Source of the DNA: Gammaproteobacteria bacterium | GTDB lineage: Bacteria > Pseudomonadota > Gammaproteobacteria > Nitrococcales > Nitrococcaceae | DNA length: 64,000 bases | Direction: 5' to 3' | Assembly: GCA_030433275.1 (NCBI GenBank) | Contig: JAUILK010000003.1 | Coordinates: forward strand, 62,001-126,000 | Shown: positions 9,354 through 60,720 of the stretch, piece after piece | Layout of the letters: every line of letters starts with the position of its first letter | Numbering within the stretch: position 1 is the stretch's first letter | Made by a program: the position numbers and the translations under genes | Notes under the pieces: generated by a model | Database searches by the model: none | What the model was told of the DNA's origin: nothing | Seen by the model: the letters and a program-made list of their open reading frames with translations, nothing else

Positions 9354-9734
9354 TTAGTGCGATGCGGCCTGATAGGCGACCTCGAAACGTTCCGCCAAAA
9401 CCGCTAGGCGTTTATCCAACGTCCACAACCTAGCGCCCGCAGTCACCAACGTGGAGGCGAGCAGCGCCATGTCCACCAATCCGCACCCGAGCCCATACAG
9501 CTTTTCCCGCTCGATGAAATCCCGCACCTCGACCAGGCTCACCTGGTTGCAAGGCAGCAGAAGATCGATGTCATTGAGTGTCTGTACACGCGGTGCAGGA
9601 GGTGTTCCGCAGGCGAGTTCCGCTACAACCATCGGATGAGTCAGCGCCATGTCCGCCTCGATCAAGCCCACCAAAACGTCGTTGCGGTTCCTGAAATGGC
9701 CTATCCATACCGACGTGTCGATGAGCACACTCAT
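9354..9734 (-). CDS. vapC: VapC-type PIN-domain ribonuclease toxin
   Basis: The 126-residue protein is a PIN domain with the acidic metal-binding residues D6 (LIDTSVWI), E39 (VVAELACG), D88 (LVDMALLA) and D107 (WTLDKRL) all present. It is therefore predicted to be an active Mg-dependent endoribonuclease that cuts tRNA or rRNA when freed from its antitoxin. It overlaps the upstream vapB stop by 4 bp, so translation is coupled. A strong terminator follows. Length is normal. Confidence 0.9.
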
Positions 9735-9937
9735 TGGCCGGCGGGCTCCGCGCGCCGGCGCGGCACATCCGGCATGTCAGGCGCCGCGCCGCCCAAGGCG
9801 GCAAGGCGCTTGGCCGCTTGCACCCGCACAAACGTTTTCATGGCCTCTCGGAAGATGTCCGACTTGTCCATCTCGGGATCGGCCATCTCCAGCGCCTTCT
9901 GGTAGAGGGCATCGTCAATCGTGACTGTAGTCCGCAT
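9731..9937 (-). CDS. vapB: VapB-type antitoxin
   Basis: The 68-residue protein starts with a ribbon-helix-helix ([20 protein letters not shown]) of the VapB/DUF2191 group. It ends in a Pro/Arg-rich tail suited to covering the toxin active site. It would neutralise VapC and bind its own promoter. The ATG has GGAGACG upstream. An A/T-rich stretch at about 9960-10000 holds the likely promoter. Antitoxin-first order and 4-bp overlap are standard for vapBC. Confidence 0.88.
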
Positions 9938-10652: not shown

Positions 10653-11246
10653 TCAGGTATGAATATCGACCCGAATGATCGCGTTGGCCGAGTCCTCGCG
10701 GGACAGATCGTAAGCCCGGTAGTCGTAAGGCGAGCGAATCGCATCGGTGAACGGATACCGATCGGGCTCGTCGGATGTCAGAAACAGCTCGTAAGCCGTG
10801 GCGATGCGCGCGCGGCGGTAGTTATCAAGCGACGCACCGCGGCCGGGCTTGGAGTTCTGCATTTGGCCGTATGCCCAGGCTAGAAAAGCCGGAATCTCGG
10901 CACAAATCACTTCGGCCAGGGCCGGATGCGATAAGTCCGCCTGCGGATGCAAGCCGGGCAGCTCGCTCTTGGCGTAGTCTTCGGGCAAAAACCACTTGAA
11001 CTCGCAGACCACGGCCCAAGTCGCTTCCAGCCAAGTCGCCGCCCAGCAGCCGCTGTGCGCGCCGAGCGGGTGACCGCGCTCGGCCTTGCGATCGTCGTAG
11101 AGCACGACGCTTTCGATCTCCCACCAGTTATTCTCATCGCAATGATAAGTAGCGTAGTCGATGAATCGATCCTGGGCCTGAGTCAAGGCATCGCCTTCCT
11201 CCCAGCTTAGATCGAGCTCGGTCAGGAAATAGTAGGTTGCATGCAT
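10653..11246 (-). CDS. ICE-associated protein of unknown function (197 aa)
   Basis: The acidic soluble 197-residue protein is rich in aromatic residues (DENNWWEIESVVLYDDR, CEFKWFLPEDYAK) and has no signal peptide or membrane segment. No family is recognised. It starts at an ATG with AAGGAGG and is preceded by a structured leader similar to those of the next genes upstream, so it belongs to the same regulated set (11370, 12136 and 12457 genes). A strong terminator follows. Its position in the ICE accessory block beside a RadC-like gene is typical of this element class. Confidence 0.75.
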   Translation of the reverse strand: MHATYYFLTELDLSWEEGDALTQAQDRFIDYATYHCDENNWWEIESVVLYDDRKAERGHPLGAHSGCWAATWLEATWAVVCEFKWFLPEDYAKSELPGLHPQADLSHPALAEVICAEIPAFLAWAYGQMQNSKPGRGASLDNYRRARIATAYELFLTSDEPDRYPFTDAIRSPYDYRAYDLSREDSANAIIRVDIHT

Positions 11247-11252
11247 GATGCG

Positions 11253-11308
11253 CCTCCTTGGGTGAAAACCGGCAGAGGCGCACGCCCACAGGGCGTGGCC
11301 CCTGTGGA
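11253..11308 (-). promoter_or_regulatory. Structured 5' leader A (before the 197-aa gene)
   Basis: The minus-strand leader holds a hairpin CACGCCC-ACA-GGGCGTG (11281-11297), alternative pairing CCACAGG/CCTGTGG, and then the ribosome site AAGGAGG next to the ATG. Its layout matches leaders B, C and D. Confidence 0.5.
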
Positions 11309-11369
11309 CGGCTTTGAGCTAAAGTGCCGCCCGGACAGGATTAACCTCGTCAGGCGGCGGTAAAATGGC

Positions 11370-11951
11370 TTAGGCGCCGGTCGAATGACTGGCGCAGAGC
11401 TCGTTGAGTTTTCGATTGGCATCCGAAACGGCCTCAGCGGCCAGATCGAACGCGACCTTGATGAAATAGTGCTCGTCGCTATCGGATTCGATGCCACTGA
11501 GAACGGCTATACCAAGCGGCACATGTGCACGTCTGGCCGAGACCTGAATTTCGACATAAGTCCAGCTCTCGGCATAGGCGCAGGCGCGCCGATGCAGTTG
11601 CTGGGCGTTGCCGGGATCCGCCGGCACGAACCAATCGAGTATCCGATGGTTGAAACGACTATGTTCGATCGCGCCGGGCTCCCAGCAAGTCGTGAAGCGG
11701 CCGATACAGTCGACACCGTCGAAGTCCCAGCCGTGCCCGTCGGCTTCGATACTGACTTCAAGATCGAAGCCGGCCTCTTGCCATTGCGCGATCCGCAGCG
11801 GCCCATCCTGGTCCAGCCATTCAAAGGCCACGTGGCGGATACGCTGGTCGAGTTCGTGGGAGCGTTGCGCCTGTTGCCAGGCGGCGAGCGCCGGCAGGAT
11901 GGGGTTCTCACGGCGCAGCGTGCGGTACAGCTCGGCTCGTTGAGTCGTCAT
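11370..11951 (-). CDS. ICE-associated protein of unknown function (193 aa)
   Basis: The soluble 193-residue protein has a helical Arg/Glu-rich start (ELYRTLRRENPILPALAAW). A middle with acidic and aromatic residues follows (EADGHGWDFDGVDCIGRF), and the end is helical. It shows no membrane segment, signal peptide or known catalytic motif. It lies between two other unknown ICE genes on the same strand and has its own structured leader (B) with AGGAG before the ATG. It is probably a house gene of the element, function unknown. Confidence 0.72.
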   Translation of the reverse strand: MTTQRAELYRTLRRENPILPALAAWQQAQRSHELDQRIRHVAFEWLDQDGPLRIAQWQEAGFDLEVSIEADGHGWDFDGVDCIGRFTTCWEPGAIEHSRFNHRILDWFVPADPGNAQQLHRRACAYAESWTYVEIQVSARRAHVPLGIAVLSGIESDSDEHYFIKVAFDLAAEAVSDANRKLNELCASHSTGA

Positions 11952-12007
11952 GGTGTGCTCCTGGAATCAGCCGGAAGCACACCGGCCCTGACGGGGCGGT
12001 ATGCCCC
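11952..12007 (-). promoter_or_regulatory. Structured 5' leader B (before the 193-aa gene)
   Basis: The leader carries GGGG-N7-CCCC (about 11993-12007), a G/C block, then AGGAG and the ATG. Its plus-strand core GGAAGCACACCGGCCCTGAC resembles the cores of leaders C and D. Confidence 0.5.
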
Positions 12008-12135
12008 GGCGGGGTGGAGAGGGAAGACCAGGGCATCGCCCTGGTCGGCTGGTCAAACGTGGCCAAGCTCGGCCATGGATACGATTTCATCGCCCACGGC
12101 GGCCAGGTGATCCAGCGCGCGTATATCGAGCAAGG

Positions 12136-12366
12136 TCAGGACTGCAACGCGAGCTGCAGTCGCTGTCTCGCTGCCTCAAGTTGCCGTTCTTTCTCATGAA
12201 CTACTGGATCGAGATTCAAAGCGCCTGCCTGGGCCTCACAGAGACCTTTGAGGCGCCGTAATTCCTCGAGATCGGCCTTGAGTCGTGGAATGAACTGCTC
12301 CTGGACATATCGAACGGTGGTGCGATCGCCGATGGCGAACGTCCAAGCAAAGTTCTTTTGAATCAT
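12136..12366 (-). CDS. Small coiled-coil protein of unknown function (76 aa)
   Basis: The 76-residue protein has a short start (MIQKNFAWTFAIGDRTTVRY) followed by a long charged helix with heptad-like Leu spacing (FIPRLKADLEELRRLKGLCE), suggesting a coiled coil. No family is recognised. Its own structured leader (C), with GGAGAAG before the ATG, and its place between other leader-bearing genes support it as a real gene. It could be a small regulator or structural partner; this is inference. Confidence 0.6.
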   Translation of the reverse strand: MIQKNFAWTFAIGDRTTVRYVQEQFIPRLKADLEELRRLKGLCEAQAGALNLDPVVHEKERQLEAARQRLQLALQS

Positions 12367-12422
12367 GGTGCTTCTCCGTAAACATGGGGAAACACCAGGC
12401 CCGCTCGGGGATGATGCTCCCC
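12367..12422 (-). promoter_or_regulatory. Structured 5' leader C (before the 76-aa gene)
   Basis: The plus-strand core 12386-12422 begins GGGGAAACACCAGGCCCGCT and ends GGGG-N8-CCCC. It is closely similar along its length to leader D (12930-12967). A GGAGAAG ribosome site lies next to the ATG. Confidence 0.55.
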
Positions 12423-12456
12423 AAGAATGGGTTGGATCGAACCCGGAAGGTCGGGG

Positions 12457-12909
12457 CTAAATCAGCCCGCGTTCGGCCAGCGATACCGTGGTGTCGCCGA
12501 CGACGAGATGATCCAGTACACGGATGTCGAACAGCGCCAGCGCGTCGACCAGTCGTCGGGTGAGGCTTCGGTCGGCCGCACTCGGCTCGGAGACGCCCGA
12601 CGGATGGTTGTGGTAGAAAATGACGCCGGCGGCGTTCTGATAAAGACATTCCTTCGCGACTTCCCGCGGATAGACCGTCGCGCCGTCGAGCGTGCCCCGG
12701 AATAGGGTCTGGTTGTCGAGCACGCGATTGCGGTTGTCGAGAAAGATCACGCCGAAGACCTCGTGCTCGAGGCCGGCGAGTTGCAGGCGCAGATAGCTGC
12801 GCGTGGCCGTGGGATCGCACAGCACGTCCCGTTCCTTGATGCCGCGCTCGATGATCGCGATGGCCTGTTGGACGATGCCGGCTTCTTCCGGCGTAATGGA
12901 TAGCAGCAT
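12457..12909 (-). CDS. RadC-like JAB/JAMM-domain protein of ICE type
   Basis: The 150-residue protein is a single RadC-type JAMM domain. It has E50 (GLEHEVFGVIFLD), H100 and H102 (FYHNHPSG) and D113 (SAADRSL), the full metal-binding set of this superfamily. It lacks the N-terminal helix-hairpin-helix of housekeeping RadC, as usual for copies on mobile elements. The biochemical role of RadC is unsettled despite the old DNA-repair label; here it probably serves the element's DNA. The ATG at 12909 follows AGGAGTCACACC and structured leader D; longer upstream frames read through that leader. Confidence 0.88.
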   Translation of the reverse strand: MLLSITPEEAGIVQQAIAIIERGIKERDVLCDPTATRSYLRLQLAGLEHEVFGVIFLDNRNRVLDNQTLFRGTLDGATVYPREVAKECLYQNAAGVIFYHNHPSGVSEPSAADRSLTRRLVDALALFDIRVLDHLVVGDTTVSLAERGLI

Positions 12910-12967
12910 GGTGTGACTCCTACGAAAAAGGGGAAACACCACGCCCCGGCCGGGGATGGTATTCCCC
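12910..12967 (-). promoter_or_regulatory. Structured 5' leader D (before the radC-like gene)
   Basis: The core 12930-12967 begins GGGGAAACACCACGCCCCGG and ends GGGG-N8-CCCC, near-identical in plan to leader C. It can fold CCCCGG/CCGGGG or GGGG/CCCC alternatives, with AGGAG just before the ATG. Confidence 0.55.
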
Positions 12968-13183
12968 GGTGGGTAGAGACAGGACCGCCGATAGACTCGG
13001 CCGCGCCGTTGTGAAGAGATGGATCGAAGCTCGAAAGCCGTCTCTTTGCGCGATCCGCAGAGACTTGAAGGGCCGCTTTGAACCAAGCGGTCAGGTATCA
13101 ACCATAGAATGTCCGGTCCGGCCATGCCGTGTCAATGCGGAGATGCCGACAGACCTCGGCGCCCCATCATCGTTGTATGGTTC

Positions 13184-13200
13184 TTGACAATGTACAATGT
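13184..13200 (+). promoter_or_regulatory. Probable promoter/operator of the RES toxin operon
   Basis: TTGACA (13184-13189) overlaps a tandem ACAATGT-ACAATGT (13187-13200) that contains the palindrome ATTGTACAAT. It lies 30 bp before the antitoxin ATG and could serve as -35 plus repressor site. No clear -10 at standard spacing is seen. Confidence 0.35.
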
Positions 13201-13230
13201 GAAACACACACAACCTTCTTAGTAAGAGCC

Positions 13231-14094
13231 ATGAGCACTGAAAACCCCTCGAAGCGGCGCAAGACGGAAAGAAAGGAGCTGCGAGCCGTCAAGGTCGACG
13301 TCTCCCAAGAGAAGCTAAGCAAGATCCGCGAGGGCGAGACGGTTCGCCTTGAGGTCGGAGGGATCTATATTCGTGCGCATAAGCGCTCTGGTCGGCTAAT
13401 CGCCGACCAAGCCCCGATGGACTGGGTGACCGATGAGGAAGATAGGGCCCGGATTCCGCGCGAGGGCGCAACGGGGCGCCTGGTCAGAAGAAAAGCAGGT
13501 CGCGGCGCGATCCAAGGCTTCTCGATGGAAAGGTTTCCGGCGCGAGTAAATCCGTCACCTCGAGAGGCGCTGATACGTCGTCTCTCTTCGCTGATTTCCG
13601 ATGCCCCCGATGCGGTGATCGCTCAGGCGCTCTCGGAGGACGACGTGGGCACGCTGGTAACGCTCGCTACGGAAGAGGCCTGGGGGCGAGAACTAACCGG
13701 CGTCGAGAAGGCTCGTCTGCGTGGGGTGAAGTACCGCGCTCAACTTATCGAACGGGCCGGCGGCGCACTCACGGTCGACCAGGTGGCACACTTTCTGGGT
13801 GTCGGCGGGGAGGCGGTGCGTAAGGCCATACGCAGTGGATCGCTGATCGCGTTTCCTGGTGCGAAGGGCTATGCGCTGCCGGCAGTGCAGTTCGAAGAGG
13901 GCAGAGAGCTCAAGGGACTGAGGCGCGTGCTGCGCGCTATGCCCATCGAGAGTCCTTGGATGCGCCTGGACTGGCTTCTTTCCCCAGAGCCGCGGCTGGG
14001 CGGCCGAGTGCCGACAGACCTGCTGCGGGCGGGGAAGGATATCGATCAGGCCGAGCAGGCCGCCGAGCTCGTCGGAGAGCAGGGTGCCGCCTAG
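13231..14094 (+). CDS. Large antitoxin of a RES-type toxin-antitoxin pair
   Basis: The 287-residue protein ends in a domain like the toxin-binding part of Xre/MbcA/ParS antitoxins (SPWMRLDWLLSPEPRLGG then VPTDLLRAGKDIDQAEQAA). Before it is a helix-turn-helix (ALTVDQVAHFLGVGGEAVRK). The first 130 residues form an extra basic region (SKRRKTERKELRAVKVDVSQ) followed by a beta-rich patch. Typical antitoxins of this class are about 130-150 residues, so this one is twice the usual size. It precedes and overlaps the RES toxin gene by 11 bp. It should neutralise the toxin and repress the operon. The start at 13231 was preferred to an in-frame ATG 34 codons upstream. Confidence 0.78.
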   Translation: MSTENPSKRRKTERKELRAVKVDVSQEKLSKIREGETVRLEVGGIYIRAHKRSGRLIADQAPMDWVTDEEDRARIPREGATGRLVRRKAGRGAIQGFSMERFPARVNPSPREALIRRLSSLISDAPDAVIAQALSEDDVGTLVTLATEEAWGRELTGVEKARLRGVKYRAQLIERAGGALTVDQVAHFLGVGGEAVRKAIRSGSLIAFPGAKGYALPAVQFEEGRELKGLRRVLRAMPIESPWMRLDWLLSPEPRLGGRVPTDLLRAGKDIDQAEQAAELVGEQGAA

Positions 14095-14668
14095 CCTTCT
14101 ACCCTCCGACGACTTACAGACGAAAAACCTCCCAATCGAAATCGTTGAGTCCGGGACAGTCATCTATCGCTCGCATCGCAATGCGAGCTCGCCGATCTAC
14201 TACAGCGTCGGTCACCCCGGGAACCGGTTTGGCGATCCGGCAGCGAAGTTCGGTGTGTGCTACTGCGCTCAGGCTCCGGCCGGCGCATTCGTAGAGACCT
14301 TTCTACGCCAAGGGACCGGCGGCTTTGTGGATCCAGACGAACTCAGAAAGCGCTCGATCGCTGATATCGAGGTGCTCCAAGAACTGCGGCTAGTGGCCTG
14401 CTACGGAGCCGGCCTGCACAAGCTGGGAGCGACCGCCGCTATTACGGCGCATGACGATATCGGGCCCGCCCAGGCCTGGGCGGCGGCTATCTATCACCAC
14501 CCTGACGCACCTGACGGGATTCGCTACCGGGTTAGACATGACAACGACCAAATAGGCGTCGCGCTGTTCGACCGAAGCGGGCCGGCCCTGAGCTGGGTAA
14601 GCTCCGAGGTATGGCGACACAGCCCGCACTTGAACGGCATTTGCAATCGCTACGAGCTCATACTATAA
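14084..14668 (+). CDS. RES-domain toxin (NAD-degrading type)
   Basis: The 194-residue protein has the RES-domain signature: an Arg and Tyr near the start (GTVIYRSHR), a conserved segment with FGVCYCAQAPAGAFVETFLR, and a late ARYRV-like block (DGIRYRVRHDNDQIGVALFD). RES toxins degrade or modify NAD+ in the cytoplasm. The start is a GTG overlapping the antitoxin end, with GGAGAGCAGG upstream. Length is close to family norms. It is paired with an unusually large antitoxin. Confidence 0.85.
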   Translation: MPPSLLPSDDLQTKNLPIEIVESGTVIYRSHRNASSPIYYSVGHPGNRFGDPAAKFGVCYCAQAPAGAFVETFLRQGTGGFVDPDELRKRSIADIEVLQELRLVACYGAGLHKLGATAAITAHDDIGPAQAWAAAIYHHPDAPDGIRYRVRHDNDQIGVALFDRSGPALSWVSSEVWRHSPHLNGICNRYELIL

Positions 14669-15325: not shown

Positions 15326-15343
15326 GTGAAACGCCCTCCATAT

Positions 15344-15385
15344 GTTGCATGTAACACCATAGCCGCATCCTCCGTTACATGCAAC
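15344..15385 (-). promoter_or_regulatory. mazEF promoter bracketed by a 12-bp inverted repeat
   Basis: GTTGCATGTAAC (15344-15355) and its exact complement (15374-15385) are 18 bp apart. On the minus strand a -35 TTGCAT lies inside the far arm and a -10 TATGGT (15356-15361) adjoins the near arm, spaced 17 bp. Binding of the antitoxin to both arms would cover the promoter. Confidence 0.65.
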
Positions 15386-15563
15386 GTGCTGTCAAGATCA
15401 GACCCAACTCTCGCCCCAGCGCACTTGGCTGATCTGAACGCGCCGGCGGAATTAGGCGCGGCGATCTCGTCACCGTGATTATACTTTGATGATAATAACA
15501 AATGTGCGTTTTGTTGTTTTTGGCATAATCATTGAATCGAAACAAACCGAGTGAGGGGCCGAT
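15386..15563. other. Spacer with a 24-bp echo of the traG 3' end
   Basis: No gene is supported. The stretch starting CAAGATCAGACCCAACTCTC (about 15393) closely matches CAAGGTCAGATCCAACTCTC at about 17344 in the traG gene, reading AGARVGSDL on the minus strand. The right half is A/T-rich and probably holds the parD promoter. Confidence 0.4.
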
Positions 15564-43767: not shown

Positions 43768-44545
43768 CCGGGCGCTCCTCAGAGGTTGAATCGGCGCCAC
43801 TCGCCCTATCCGTCGCCGCCTGATCGCTGGCCACACTGTGGCCAGCCGCTGCGGACTGGCTCAGTCCGTCAATCGCCGGCGCGTGCGCCGGCCGCAGCCC
43901 ACCGTCCAACACCGCCTGCGGCAGCTCACCCATGGCTTCGCGGGCTCGCGCCGCCCGGCGGTTGTTCTGGCGCACATCCTCACGCTTGACGGCGGTCGCC
44001 TTGTAGCCCCGGGCCACGGCGAAGGCTCGGCGGACCGCACGGCCGGCATCATGGAGCCTCCGCTCGGCTTCATCCCGATTGATAAGACCGACATGGCGCG
44101 CCGTCAGGATGGCCAGTACCAGCTCGTCCATTTCGACGAGCAACCAGGCGCCCATGTATCCGTAGGGATTCGAGAAAGTCAGCTCGACCTTCGCGGGCTC
44201 GAGCGAATGCGCCAGACCAACCTTCATCGCGGCCACGCGCGCCAGATCGCTCCCGAGCGTCTGCTGCATATGCGTGAGCTCGTCCTTGGACTCGGTCAGG
44301 GCTTGCTCGACCTTCAGTAGATACCAATCGGCATAGGGGTCGTCTTTGGACGCCCCGGCCCAGATCGTGCGCATCATGGCGCCGTACCGATACAGGCCGA
44401 TAATGGGTGGCTTACCGTCGGCGTCATTGCCGCGGCGTCCTCCGACCAGGCGTTGCGCCTGGCGTGTCTGGATGGTCATTTCGACAAAGTTGCGCAGCCG
44501 GCCGGGCACGATCGCCGGCGTACGGGATGATGGTGTGTCGGTCAT
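43751..44545 (-). CDS. ICE protein, TIGR03761 family (PFL_4669)
   Basis: The 264-residue protein has the TIGR03761 core (RQAQRLVGGR, GLYRYGAMMRTIWAGASKDD, PYADWYLLKVEQ). A helical middle and a disordered tail that contains a palindrome copy (GHSVAS) follow. Family members are of unknown function and sit in the ssb/topB module. The ATG at 44545 is preceded by GGAGTCACATC, much like leader D of the radC-like gene, and by a hairpin GCGGCA/TGCCGC. Confidence 0.85.
   Translation of the reverse strand: MTDTPSSRTPAIVPGRLRNFVEMTIQTRQAQRLVGGRRGNDADGKPPIIGLYRYGAMMRTIWAGASKDDPYADWYLLKVEQALTESKDELTHMQQTLGSDLARVAAMKVGLAHSLEPAKVELTFSNPYGYMGAWLLVEMDELVLAILTARHVGLINRDEAERRLHDAGRAVRRAFAVARGYKATAVKREDVRQNNRRAARAREAMGELPQAVLDGGLRPAHAPAIDGLSQSAAAGHSVASDQAATDRASGADSTSEERPDGDES
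43828..43844. repeat. GGCCACA palindrome copy inside the TIGR03761 gene 3' end
   Basis: TGGCCACACTGTGGCCA lies near the 3' end of the 43751-44545 gene, read as GHSVAS. Confidence 0.9.
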
Positions 44546-60455: not shown

Positions 60456-60720
60456 TCAGCTCAACAGGCTCAGGACGGTCAGCACAAACCCGAGCATGCC
60501 AACCACAGCCGCGACGATCATCAACCGCCGCTCCCAACCGGGTTGCGCGCCCGCGGTGCCCCCCCGTGTGGGTAACGATGATCGGCCCGTTGGCATTGCC
60601 GCCGACTGCAGCACTGCCCTGCTTGGCCGTGACCTTGGTCTTGCTCGAGCGCCGCGCACCGAGGAAAAGAACCAACAGCACGGCGGCCAGCATCAGCACC
60701 ACACCGCTCAATTCCAGCAT
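60456..60720 (-). pseudogene. Small two-helix membrane protein with G7 frameshift
   Basis: From the ATG at 60720 the frame encodes a membrane helix (SGVVLMLAAVLLVLFLGARR), a linker (GSAAVGGNANGPIIVTHTGG) and then passes through a run of seven G on the minus strand (60559-60565). After it the sensible continuation lies in another frame: WERRLMIVAAVVGMLGFVLT and a stop at about 60456. An indel in the homopolymer separates the two helices. This may be real decay, slip-strand phase variation or an assembly error. No family is recognised. Confidence 0.5.

Follow-up and report, generated by a model that had tools for sequence, protein, structure and literature searches.

The window analyzed here is a 64,000-nt stretch of contig JAUILK010000003.1 of a gammaproteobacterial genome (GenBank assembly GCA_030433275.1) and holds part of a PFGI-1/ICEHin1056-type integrative conjugative element (ICE), marked by TIGR03761, TIGR03744 (traC), TIGR03752, TIGR03746, TraD, topB and the ParB family TIGR03764. 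As judged by RadC, its closest relative is a Salinisphaera metagenome-assembled genome (81% identity). Four consecutive genes of this element, all on the minus strand, each carry a structured leader that abuts the ATG, as the first-pass annotation of the window had described, and these leaders are the subject of this report. In window numbering, the genes are a RadC-like JAB-domain gene of 150 aa (12457..12909; PF04002, E 3e-41; TIGR00608) behind leader D (12907..12974), a 76-aa gene (12136..12366) behind leader C (12364..12432), a 193-aa gene (11370..11951) behind leader B (11949..12015), and a 197-aa gene (10653..11246) behind leader A (11244..11309). The 76-aa and 197-aa genes have no Pfam or NCBIfam match. 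Relatives of the 193-aa gene in L002, L003, L004 and L141 also bear leaders (L-numbers denote fetched loci or named plasmid regions used for comparison; L004 and L141 are apparently the same contig), and relatives of the 197-aa gene, sought among the fetched loci, were found nowhere outside the window's own genome. Between the 76-aa gene and leader B, at about 12053-12124 of the minus strand, lies a remnant of a RadC C-terminus (IRALDHLAAVGDEIVSMAELGHV, recognized by eye), which suggests duplication and deletion around the leaders.

Leaders A-D each fold into two hairpins with a GGAG in the 3' arm of the second, and their folds have shuffle z-scores of -4.2 (A), -3.4 (B), -3.8 (C) and -2.6 (D, for which 2 of 200 shuffles were equally stable). 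In leaders B, C and D, and weakly in A, the first hairpin (H1) combines an outer CCC/GGG helix with an inner GGGG-loop-CCCC helix, and the 3' arm of the second hairpin (H2) is the Shine-Dalgarno sequence (SD) and reaches the ATG. A mechanical scan of the starts in the window for SD-containing hairpins listed 16, including A, B and C and leaving out D. From 5' to 3', the leader is divided into segments O (ACCC), P (GGGG and the loop, e.g. GGGGAACACC), P' (CCCC), O' (GGG), Q (e.g. GGTGTTCCCC), a loop, and R (the SD arm, e.g. GGAGCAACACC), followed by the ATG. In leader D, these lie at 12974-12969 (O), 12968-12957 (P), 12956-12950 (P'), about 12949-12944 (O'), 12941-12930 (Q) and 12920-12910 (R), directly before the ATG. 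The corresponding P, Q and R segments are at 12424-12412, 12397-12386 and 12377-12367 in leader C and at 12008-11998, 11983-11971 and 11961-11952 in leader B, each again followed by the ATG, and at about 11303-11294, 11285-11274 and 11257-11248 in leader A. The nearly identical cores first reported for C (12386-12422) and D (12930-12967) coincide almost exactly with the stretch from P to Q.

Extent of the leader family

A covariance model (R1) was built from leaders B, C and D together with four relatives, and was widened in two rounds to models R2 and R3. Leaders B, C and D are matched by both R1 and R3; their R1 scores (59, 64 and 60 bits) are high by construction, as R1 was built partly from them. 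Leader A, which was outside the R1 training set, reached 10.8 bits (E 1.3) with R1 and 17.7 bits (E 0.38) with R3, and because these scores are low it is a diverged member at most, so that the claim of one leader shared by all four genes holds for B, C and D and is weak for A. The first-pass annotation had also related the leaders of two more distant genes to this set. The TIGR03761 gene at 44545 does have the GGAGTCACATCATG end, but its leader gave no match with R1 (E up to 10) or R3 (E up to 5), and the ssb leader likewise gave no R1 or R3 match at any candidate place in the window. Both were rejected as members; PFL_4669 and ssb genes in L183 and L185 are also without a leader. The only other matches in the window are at 60510-60573 of the minus strand (E 3.5) and on the plus strand inside leader B. 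The set also proved larger than first noted, with three more leaders on the same contig. Counting these, confident leaders of the window's own genome number six and form two clusters, one in the window (C2:73949-74974) and one about 35 kb off and outside it (C2:38205-39408), where the leaders precede a DUF3577 gene, a 74-aa gene and a DUF932 gene. An exact-pattern search of this genome for leaders returned nothing, and a DNA search with leader B yielded short matches only.

The covariance search that had been suggested as a check recovered the family in 21 of 369 genomes of the class (20 of 272 genera; R3, E≤1e-3), 15 of which have at least two copies, and in 8 of 13 named plasmid and ICE regions. 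With R2, the family was present in 4 of 54 genomes of the order and 18 of 369 of the class; among 398 genomes drawn from the phylum, six had it (E≤1e-4), all of them members of the own class. Each of these counts includes the own genome. Among 80 radC loci searched with R1 (E up to 5), matches were concentrated in L001-L004, L007, L008, L010 and L047, and the remaining 72 gave no convincing match (two weak ones, E 3.0 and 4.2). Loci L001 to L004 contain 5, 7, 7 and 7 leaders, respectively, within 8.5 kb and on a single strand. The 13 named regions (L176-L188) had been chosen as radC or DUF3577 matches. The eight with leaders (L181-L188) were all chosen by DUF3577 and comprise records of pKLC102, ICEhin1056, Pseudomonas veronii, Stutzerimonas, Vibrio, Nitrogeniibacter, Paraburkholderia and Enterobacter; no leaders were found in the five regions chosen by radC (L176-L180).

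Position at a gene start is a consistent property of the family. Searching 35 sources with R2 yielded 144 leaders at E≤0.02, a number that includes near-identical copies and, in part, the same place fetched twice (L004 and L141). All but eight of these (136 of 144) end exactly at the start of an open reading frame (ORF) of at least 40 aa; of the eight, six end at an ATG that opens an ORF of 1-33 aa, and two lack a start codon at their end. In the eight named regions, 42 of 50 plus-strand matches (E≤1; a list of 55 with the five on the minus strand left out) end on an annotated coding sequence start. The 136 proteins behind leaders fall into 56 clusters. A DUF3577/STY4534 cluster, one member of which was checked by Pfam, stands behind a leader in 14 fetched loci and RadC in 13. 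Based on cluster representatives, other leader-borne genes encode ArdC, a PF03230 (ArdB-type) antirestriction protein, an SNF2/DEAD helicase, RecT, a DUF6094 methylase, C5 and N6 methylases, CobT- and MoxR/CbbQ-like proteins, DUF3150 and a Toprim primase, and six of 20 representatives have no Pfam match at E≤0.01.

An alternative pairing between the two hairpins

Segment P, the 5' arm of H1 with its loop, is complementary to segment Q, the 5' arm of H2, which also pairs with R; examples are GGGGAACACC with GGTGTTCCCC in L002:6164 and AGGGAATCC with GGATTCCCT in L047:4511. As P imitates the SD arm R, Q has two competing partners, in the manner of anti-SD and anti-anti-SD elements. The P:Q duplex energies in the window are -16.8 (D), -16.5 (C) and -25.1 kcal/mol (B), and -17.9 kcal/mol in leader A, where 104 of 2000 shuffles of Q were equally low. 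P:Q is absent from the structure of the covariance model, and therefore was not selected by the model as a pairing.

Compensatory changes, whose absence from homologues would have counted against the proposal of the first-pass annotation, are abundant. Alignment A4 was fitted to the model and has 38 distinct rows; 13 of its 20 H1/H2 pairs have changes on both sides, and the covariation score of 0.277 compares with 0.146 in shuffles (0 of 500 as high). For P:Q, the energy of a leader's own segments was compared with that of permuted partners, and in no comparison did any of 20000 permutations give a value as low. The first set of 28 leaders gave -16.5 versus -12.6 kcal/mol, and a wider set of 101 non-redundant leaders gave -18.8 versus -13.0 kcal/mol. 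Exchanging partners within loci only (95 leaders, 26 loci) gave a permuted value of -15.4 kcal/mol. In named records outside the R2 training set, using the 47 of 55 matches that are on the plus strand and end at an ORF start, the values were -15.95 and -9.78 kcal/mol. All 15 pairs among the six segments were tested in 96 non-redundant leaders, taken from 188 with ATG or GTG. Only three pairs stand out, P:P' (z -15.3 overall, -8.1 within locus), P:Q (-21.3, -10.4) and Q:R (-16.9, -7.9), with all others at |z| below 4. P:Q thus covaries most, more than either hairpin. The SD is paired within a hairpin that is conserved by compensatory change, and the mutually exclusive pairings P:P', P:Q and Q:R all covary.

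Computed stabilities were obtained for the same 96 leaders. The closed fold, in which O:O', P:P' and Q:R pair (fold A), has a mean energy of -33.9 kcal/mol, compared with -26.5 kcal/mol for the best fold without R and -18.4 kcal/mol for H1 alone. When R is absent, the best fold of 79 of the 96 leaders contains at least five P:Q pairs. Fold A is more stable than the P:Q-paired fold (fold B) by a median of 7.4 kcal/mol, with the reverse in 5 of 96. P:Q cuts the computed cost of exposing the SD from about 15 to about 7 kcal/mol (differences of means; 7.9 as median). In the eight annotated regions, SD accessibility is 0.32 at leader starts versus 0.45 at other starts (42 versus 108 plus-strand starts), with dG of -16.2 versus -9.7.

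A candidate bistable switch and competing explanations

As these pairings are mutually exclusive and covary, each leader probably works in cis as a bistable switch of translation, about 65-80 nt long. The SD would be hidden in fold A and free in fold B, in which P:Q could be capped by P':O' to give one long hairpin, and P:P' would decide between Q:R and P:Q. Since P:Q can form before R has been made, the simplest working order would be a kinetic one, open when young and closed when old. In the nascent RNA, P:Q would form once Q emerges and would usually be the best fold until R appears, so that young RNA might be translatable for a time before relaxing to the more stable fold A; a ribosome, or a factor acting on H1, may hold the leader open. 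With a switch of its own on each gene, an operon could respond as a set. The comparative basis of this reading is made up of the conserved segments, their position at gene starts, the covariation of P:P', P:Q and Q:R, and the computed stabilities; what we infer is in-cell regulation of the SD, the kinetic order of the folds, and any trigger. The shared post-transcriptional control by a fold-based switch that had been proposed for these genes is well supported by this comparative evidence.

Several observations weigh against the switch. The best fold without R lacks P:Q in 17 of 96 leaders, and P:Q is weak as aligned in some of them (e.g., L001:2845, L047:2182, L047:5452 and L003:3384). Little covariation of their own is seen in two further pairings, the outer helix O:O' (z -2.8) and the putative cap P':O' (z -3.9; -1.2 within locus). 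The difference in SD accessibility is only moderate, and in a cruder control with 320 mechanically picked starts it shrinks to 0.32 versus 0.37. Leader A is weak although it forms the 3' end of the interval in which the leaders were first reported. Among the evidence in favor of the switch, G.U exceeds A.C at paired columns (233 versus 92; 96 versus 28), as expected of a sense-strand RNA fold, but since the model fitted the alignment, this count is biased towards RNA. In addition, the models were grown iteratively from their own matches, E-values are rough, the segment borders (those of P' and O' above all) were cut by simple rules, and relatedness in the P:Q tests was handled by within-locus permutation only, without a tree. 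The surroundings of the leaders were also considered. The 60 nt upstream have a mean z of -1.5 against simple shuffles, with 31 of 95 below -2; only some leaders have extra upstream structure, and a third hairpin common to all was rejected. Upstream stop codons (found for 91 of 96) are widely scattered, at a median distance of 54 nt from the leader, and given this spacing, coupling to an upstream ribosome through direct melting of the leader is not favored.

The hairpins could instead serve transcription, with P:Q and the T-rich tract behind it forming an intrinsic terminator between genes, H1 acting as antiterminator, and an RNA at the operon head (radC RNA or the upstream structured module, USM, both described below) perhaps being a cis-acting antitermination RNA. 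We regard this as unlikely. The frequency of T after Q is 0.60 and falls to 0.27 over eight positions, versus 0.21 overall, and 39 of 95 leaders have at least four T in the first six positions, but 17 of the 95 have at most one, and all of these counts are approximate, as the end of Q was set by duplex prediction and is misplaced in some rows. A scan for terminators, whose loop limit of 3-8 makes it blind to P:Q, found 12 terminator-like sites on both strands of L002 2500-6600 versus 3.1 expected from shuffles, two of which lie in leaders, but as other short stems; under the same limit the window region has one such site versus 2.7 expected, and it lies outside the leaders. Q:R should form too late to matter for termination, yet it covaries strongly and ends at the SD, and therefore a role in translation or stability is needed. 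Because a T-rich tract follows Q, P:Q may also act as a terminator in some copies.

Alternatively, H1 could be the binding site of a trans-acting factor, such as an antisense RNA or an RNA-binding protein encoded by the element or the host, that sets fold A, with P:Q and Q:R as the expression platform. This is possible, if rather doubtful, and is compatible with a bistable switch, from which it differs in the trigger. The same leader stands on many genes of one element, and conservation extends beyond pairing, to an A before the CCC in 77 of 96 leaders and to a conserved, G-poor pyrimidine/A-rich tract of about 8-10 nt with low predicted pairing (96 copies) that ends in ACCC just 5' of H1; together the tract and the A could serve ribosome standby or protein binding. 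The G and C runs, however, each serve two partners, which could explain much of the conservation, and no protein of this kind was identified, including the element-encoded one raised in the first-pass annotation, although no dedicated search for one was made. A function of the hairpins in the transferred strand, as single-stranded DNA, is very improbable. Plasmid leading regions are known to contain single-stranded promoters and priming signals, and several genes behind the leaders are of types familiar from such regions (antirestriction, RadC, recombination, methylases), but the hairpins end at the SD and ATG, the excess of G.U over A.C (with the bias noted above) is on the mRNA-sense strand, and no sigma-70-like promoter pairs were found in the two regions scanned (L002 2500-6600 and the window region). 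Just as little credence is given to the repeats being mobile or recombination-prone spacers that shuffle gene cassettes and have no regulatory role. The very mixed gene content and the RadC remnant upstream of leader B would fit such spacers, but P:Q covariation inside single elements and the exact registration with SD and ATG point to selection on RNA.

We know of no account of the timing of RadC, ArdC, ArdB-type and methylase genes in these conjugative elements, a question on which the literature was not searched, and as the candidate switch is present in the model elements pKLC102 and ICEhin1056, such timing could be tested directly with reporters. Studies of co-transcriptional folding could draw on the family for about a hundred distinct natural versions of one putative bistable RNA, and its sequence could serve as a marker of a gene set that mixes many uncharacterized members with known anti-restriction genes.

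The operon head and known systems

Several arrays have a long gap before the first leader and shorter ones before internal leaders, as measured to mechanically found ORFs (448 versus 13-81 nt in ICEhin1056; 390 versus 25-121 nt in the window). This pattern is less regular in other arrays, and two long gaps occur in pKLC102. Before the first leader of the window array lies the USM (13021..13091, minus strand), delineated by BLASTN, a 13-copy alignment and a pattern. It consists of a hairpin, CCCTTCAAG / CCCTTGAAG, and a second hairpin whose loop GGATCG is able to pair with a downstream CGATCC, likely as a pseudoknot. BLASTN with the window copy matched two copies in L099, which precede leaders 15340 and 14205, and copies in L142, L001, L002, L141 and others; the USM is also present in L003, L146, L163 and L164. 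A strict pattern places it before 10 of 194 leaders, in Salinisphaera-type arrays and L146, and mostly before an array's first leader. Three copies have no listed leader behind them, in loci that do have listed leaders (L146, L150 and L164), and for the one in L146 an R3 leader match is present (G177:C1:1064292-1064386). The copies tested against Rfam (window, L001-L003, L099 and L142) gave no match. In L145, a place comparable to that of the USM is taken by a radC RNA (RF01754, 131.7 bits) that ends 18 nt 5' of a leader. This leader array contains three strong radC RNA matches on the minus strand (12078-12226, 13586-13738 and 15331-15476); hairpins also follow the other two, but these are not among the R2 matches at E≤0.02. 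The USM resembles radC RNA in layout by eye, a likeness for which cmscan gives no support.

As a speculation to which we assign a low probability, elements of the ICEHin1056/pKLC102 type and their relatives might control an operon of accessory genes for DNA processing and anti-restriction through an RNA timer repeated gene by gene, composed of an operon-head RNA (radC RNA or USM, where present) and a bistable switch on each gene. Fresh transcripts made after activation or entry into a recipient would be translated in a burst and would then shut themselves off. The role of the head RNA may be that of a sensor, or of an antitermination element for the P:Q hairpins that lie downstream.

Two further gene pairs lie near the leader operon. 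On the plus strand at 13129-14668, a protein with weak helix-turn-helix and Xre/MbcA-type matches (below Pfam cut-offs) precedes a RES-domain protein (PF08808). The two are probably a toxin-antitoxin pair and are oriented divergently from the leader operon; the Vibrio pectenicida plasmid (L184) likewise has an annotated Xre/RES pair close to its leaders. At 9354-9937 of the minus strand, two adjacent small ORFs resemble an antitoxin and a PIN-domain toxin of VapBC type, by eye only.

Finally, the leaders were set against known RNA families and mechanisms. Neither the window nor 15 radC loci had a match to any Rfam 15 family at its gathering score, and in nine further loci only the radC RNA beside the leaders in L145 and group II introns were found, none on a leader; one DUF3577 leader region searched at E up to 5 gave no match. 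These searches left out L176-L188 and loci such as L141, L143, L144, L146 and L151. A DUF3577 RNA motif, said to have been described by Weinberg and colleagues in 2017, reportedly occurs upstream of DUF3577 genes of conjugative elements and may overlap part of the family, namely its DUF3577 copies. Translational riboswitch platforms use sequestrators, anti-sequestrators and anti-anti-sequestrators, and the logic of the leader is alike, but the leader has no recognized separate aptamer (no dedicated test was made) and its H1 is about 30 nt. The radC RNA precedes further DNA-processing and antirestriction genes besides radC, and the new leader is likewise upstream of radC and DNA-processing genes. 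However, radC RNA has 149 positions and another fold, and no leader tested reaches its gathering cut-off of 40 bits, so that the leaders are not counted as members. Its model gave no match on the window leaders and a best score in the own genome of 22.6 bits, on another contig. The spread of the two also differs, with radC RNA in 1 of 369 class genomes (E≤1e-5; that of L145) and the leader in 21 of 369 (E≤1e-3).

Weinberg et al. 2010 (PMC2864571) list radC RNA in their table as a cis-regulatory motif of Proteobacteria. The STAXI motif of the same source, described as lying near genes for ssDNA-binding, antirestriction and integrase proteins (PMC2864571), is made up of repeated pseudoknots as presented there, whereas the leader is made up of two hairpins and has no Rfam match where tested. 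Neither the repeated per-gene use nor the P:Q alternative was found in the literature searched, on radC and DUF3577 RNAs, on these elements and on kinetic folding, and the novelty of the proposed switch rests on that literature only. The proposed mechanism resembles kinetic timers of translation. Passages of PMC6733600 describe how, in the MS2 maturation-gene leader and the hok and aapA3 toxin mRNAs, transient folds and stable, SD-hiding folds time translation, the transient fold of the MS2 maturation gene being the one that allows it. As described in those passages, such timers serve single genes, whereas the leader found here is a compact module repeated on many genes of an element.

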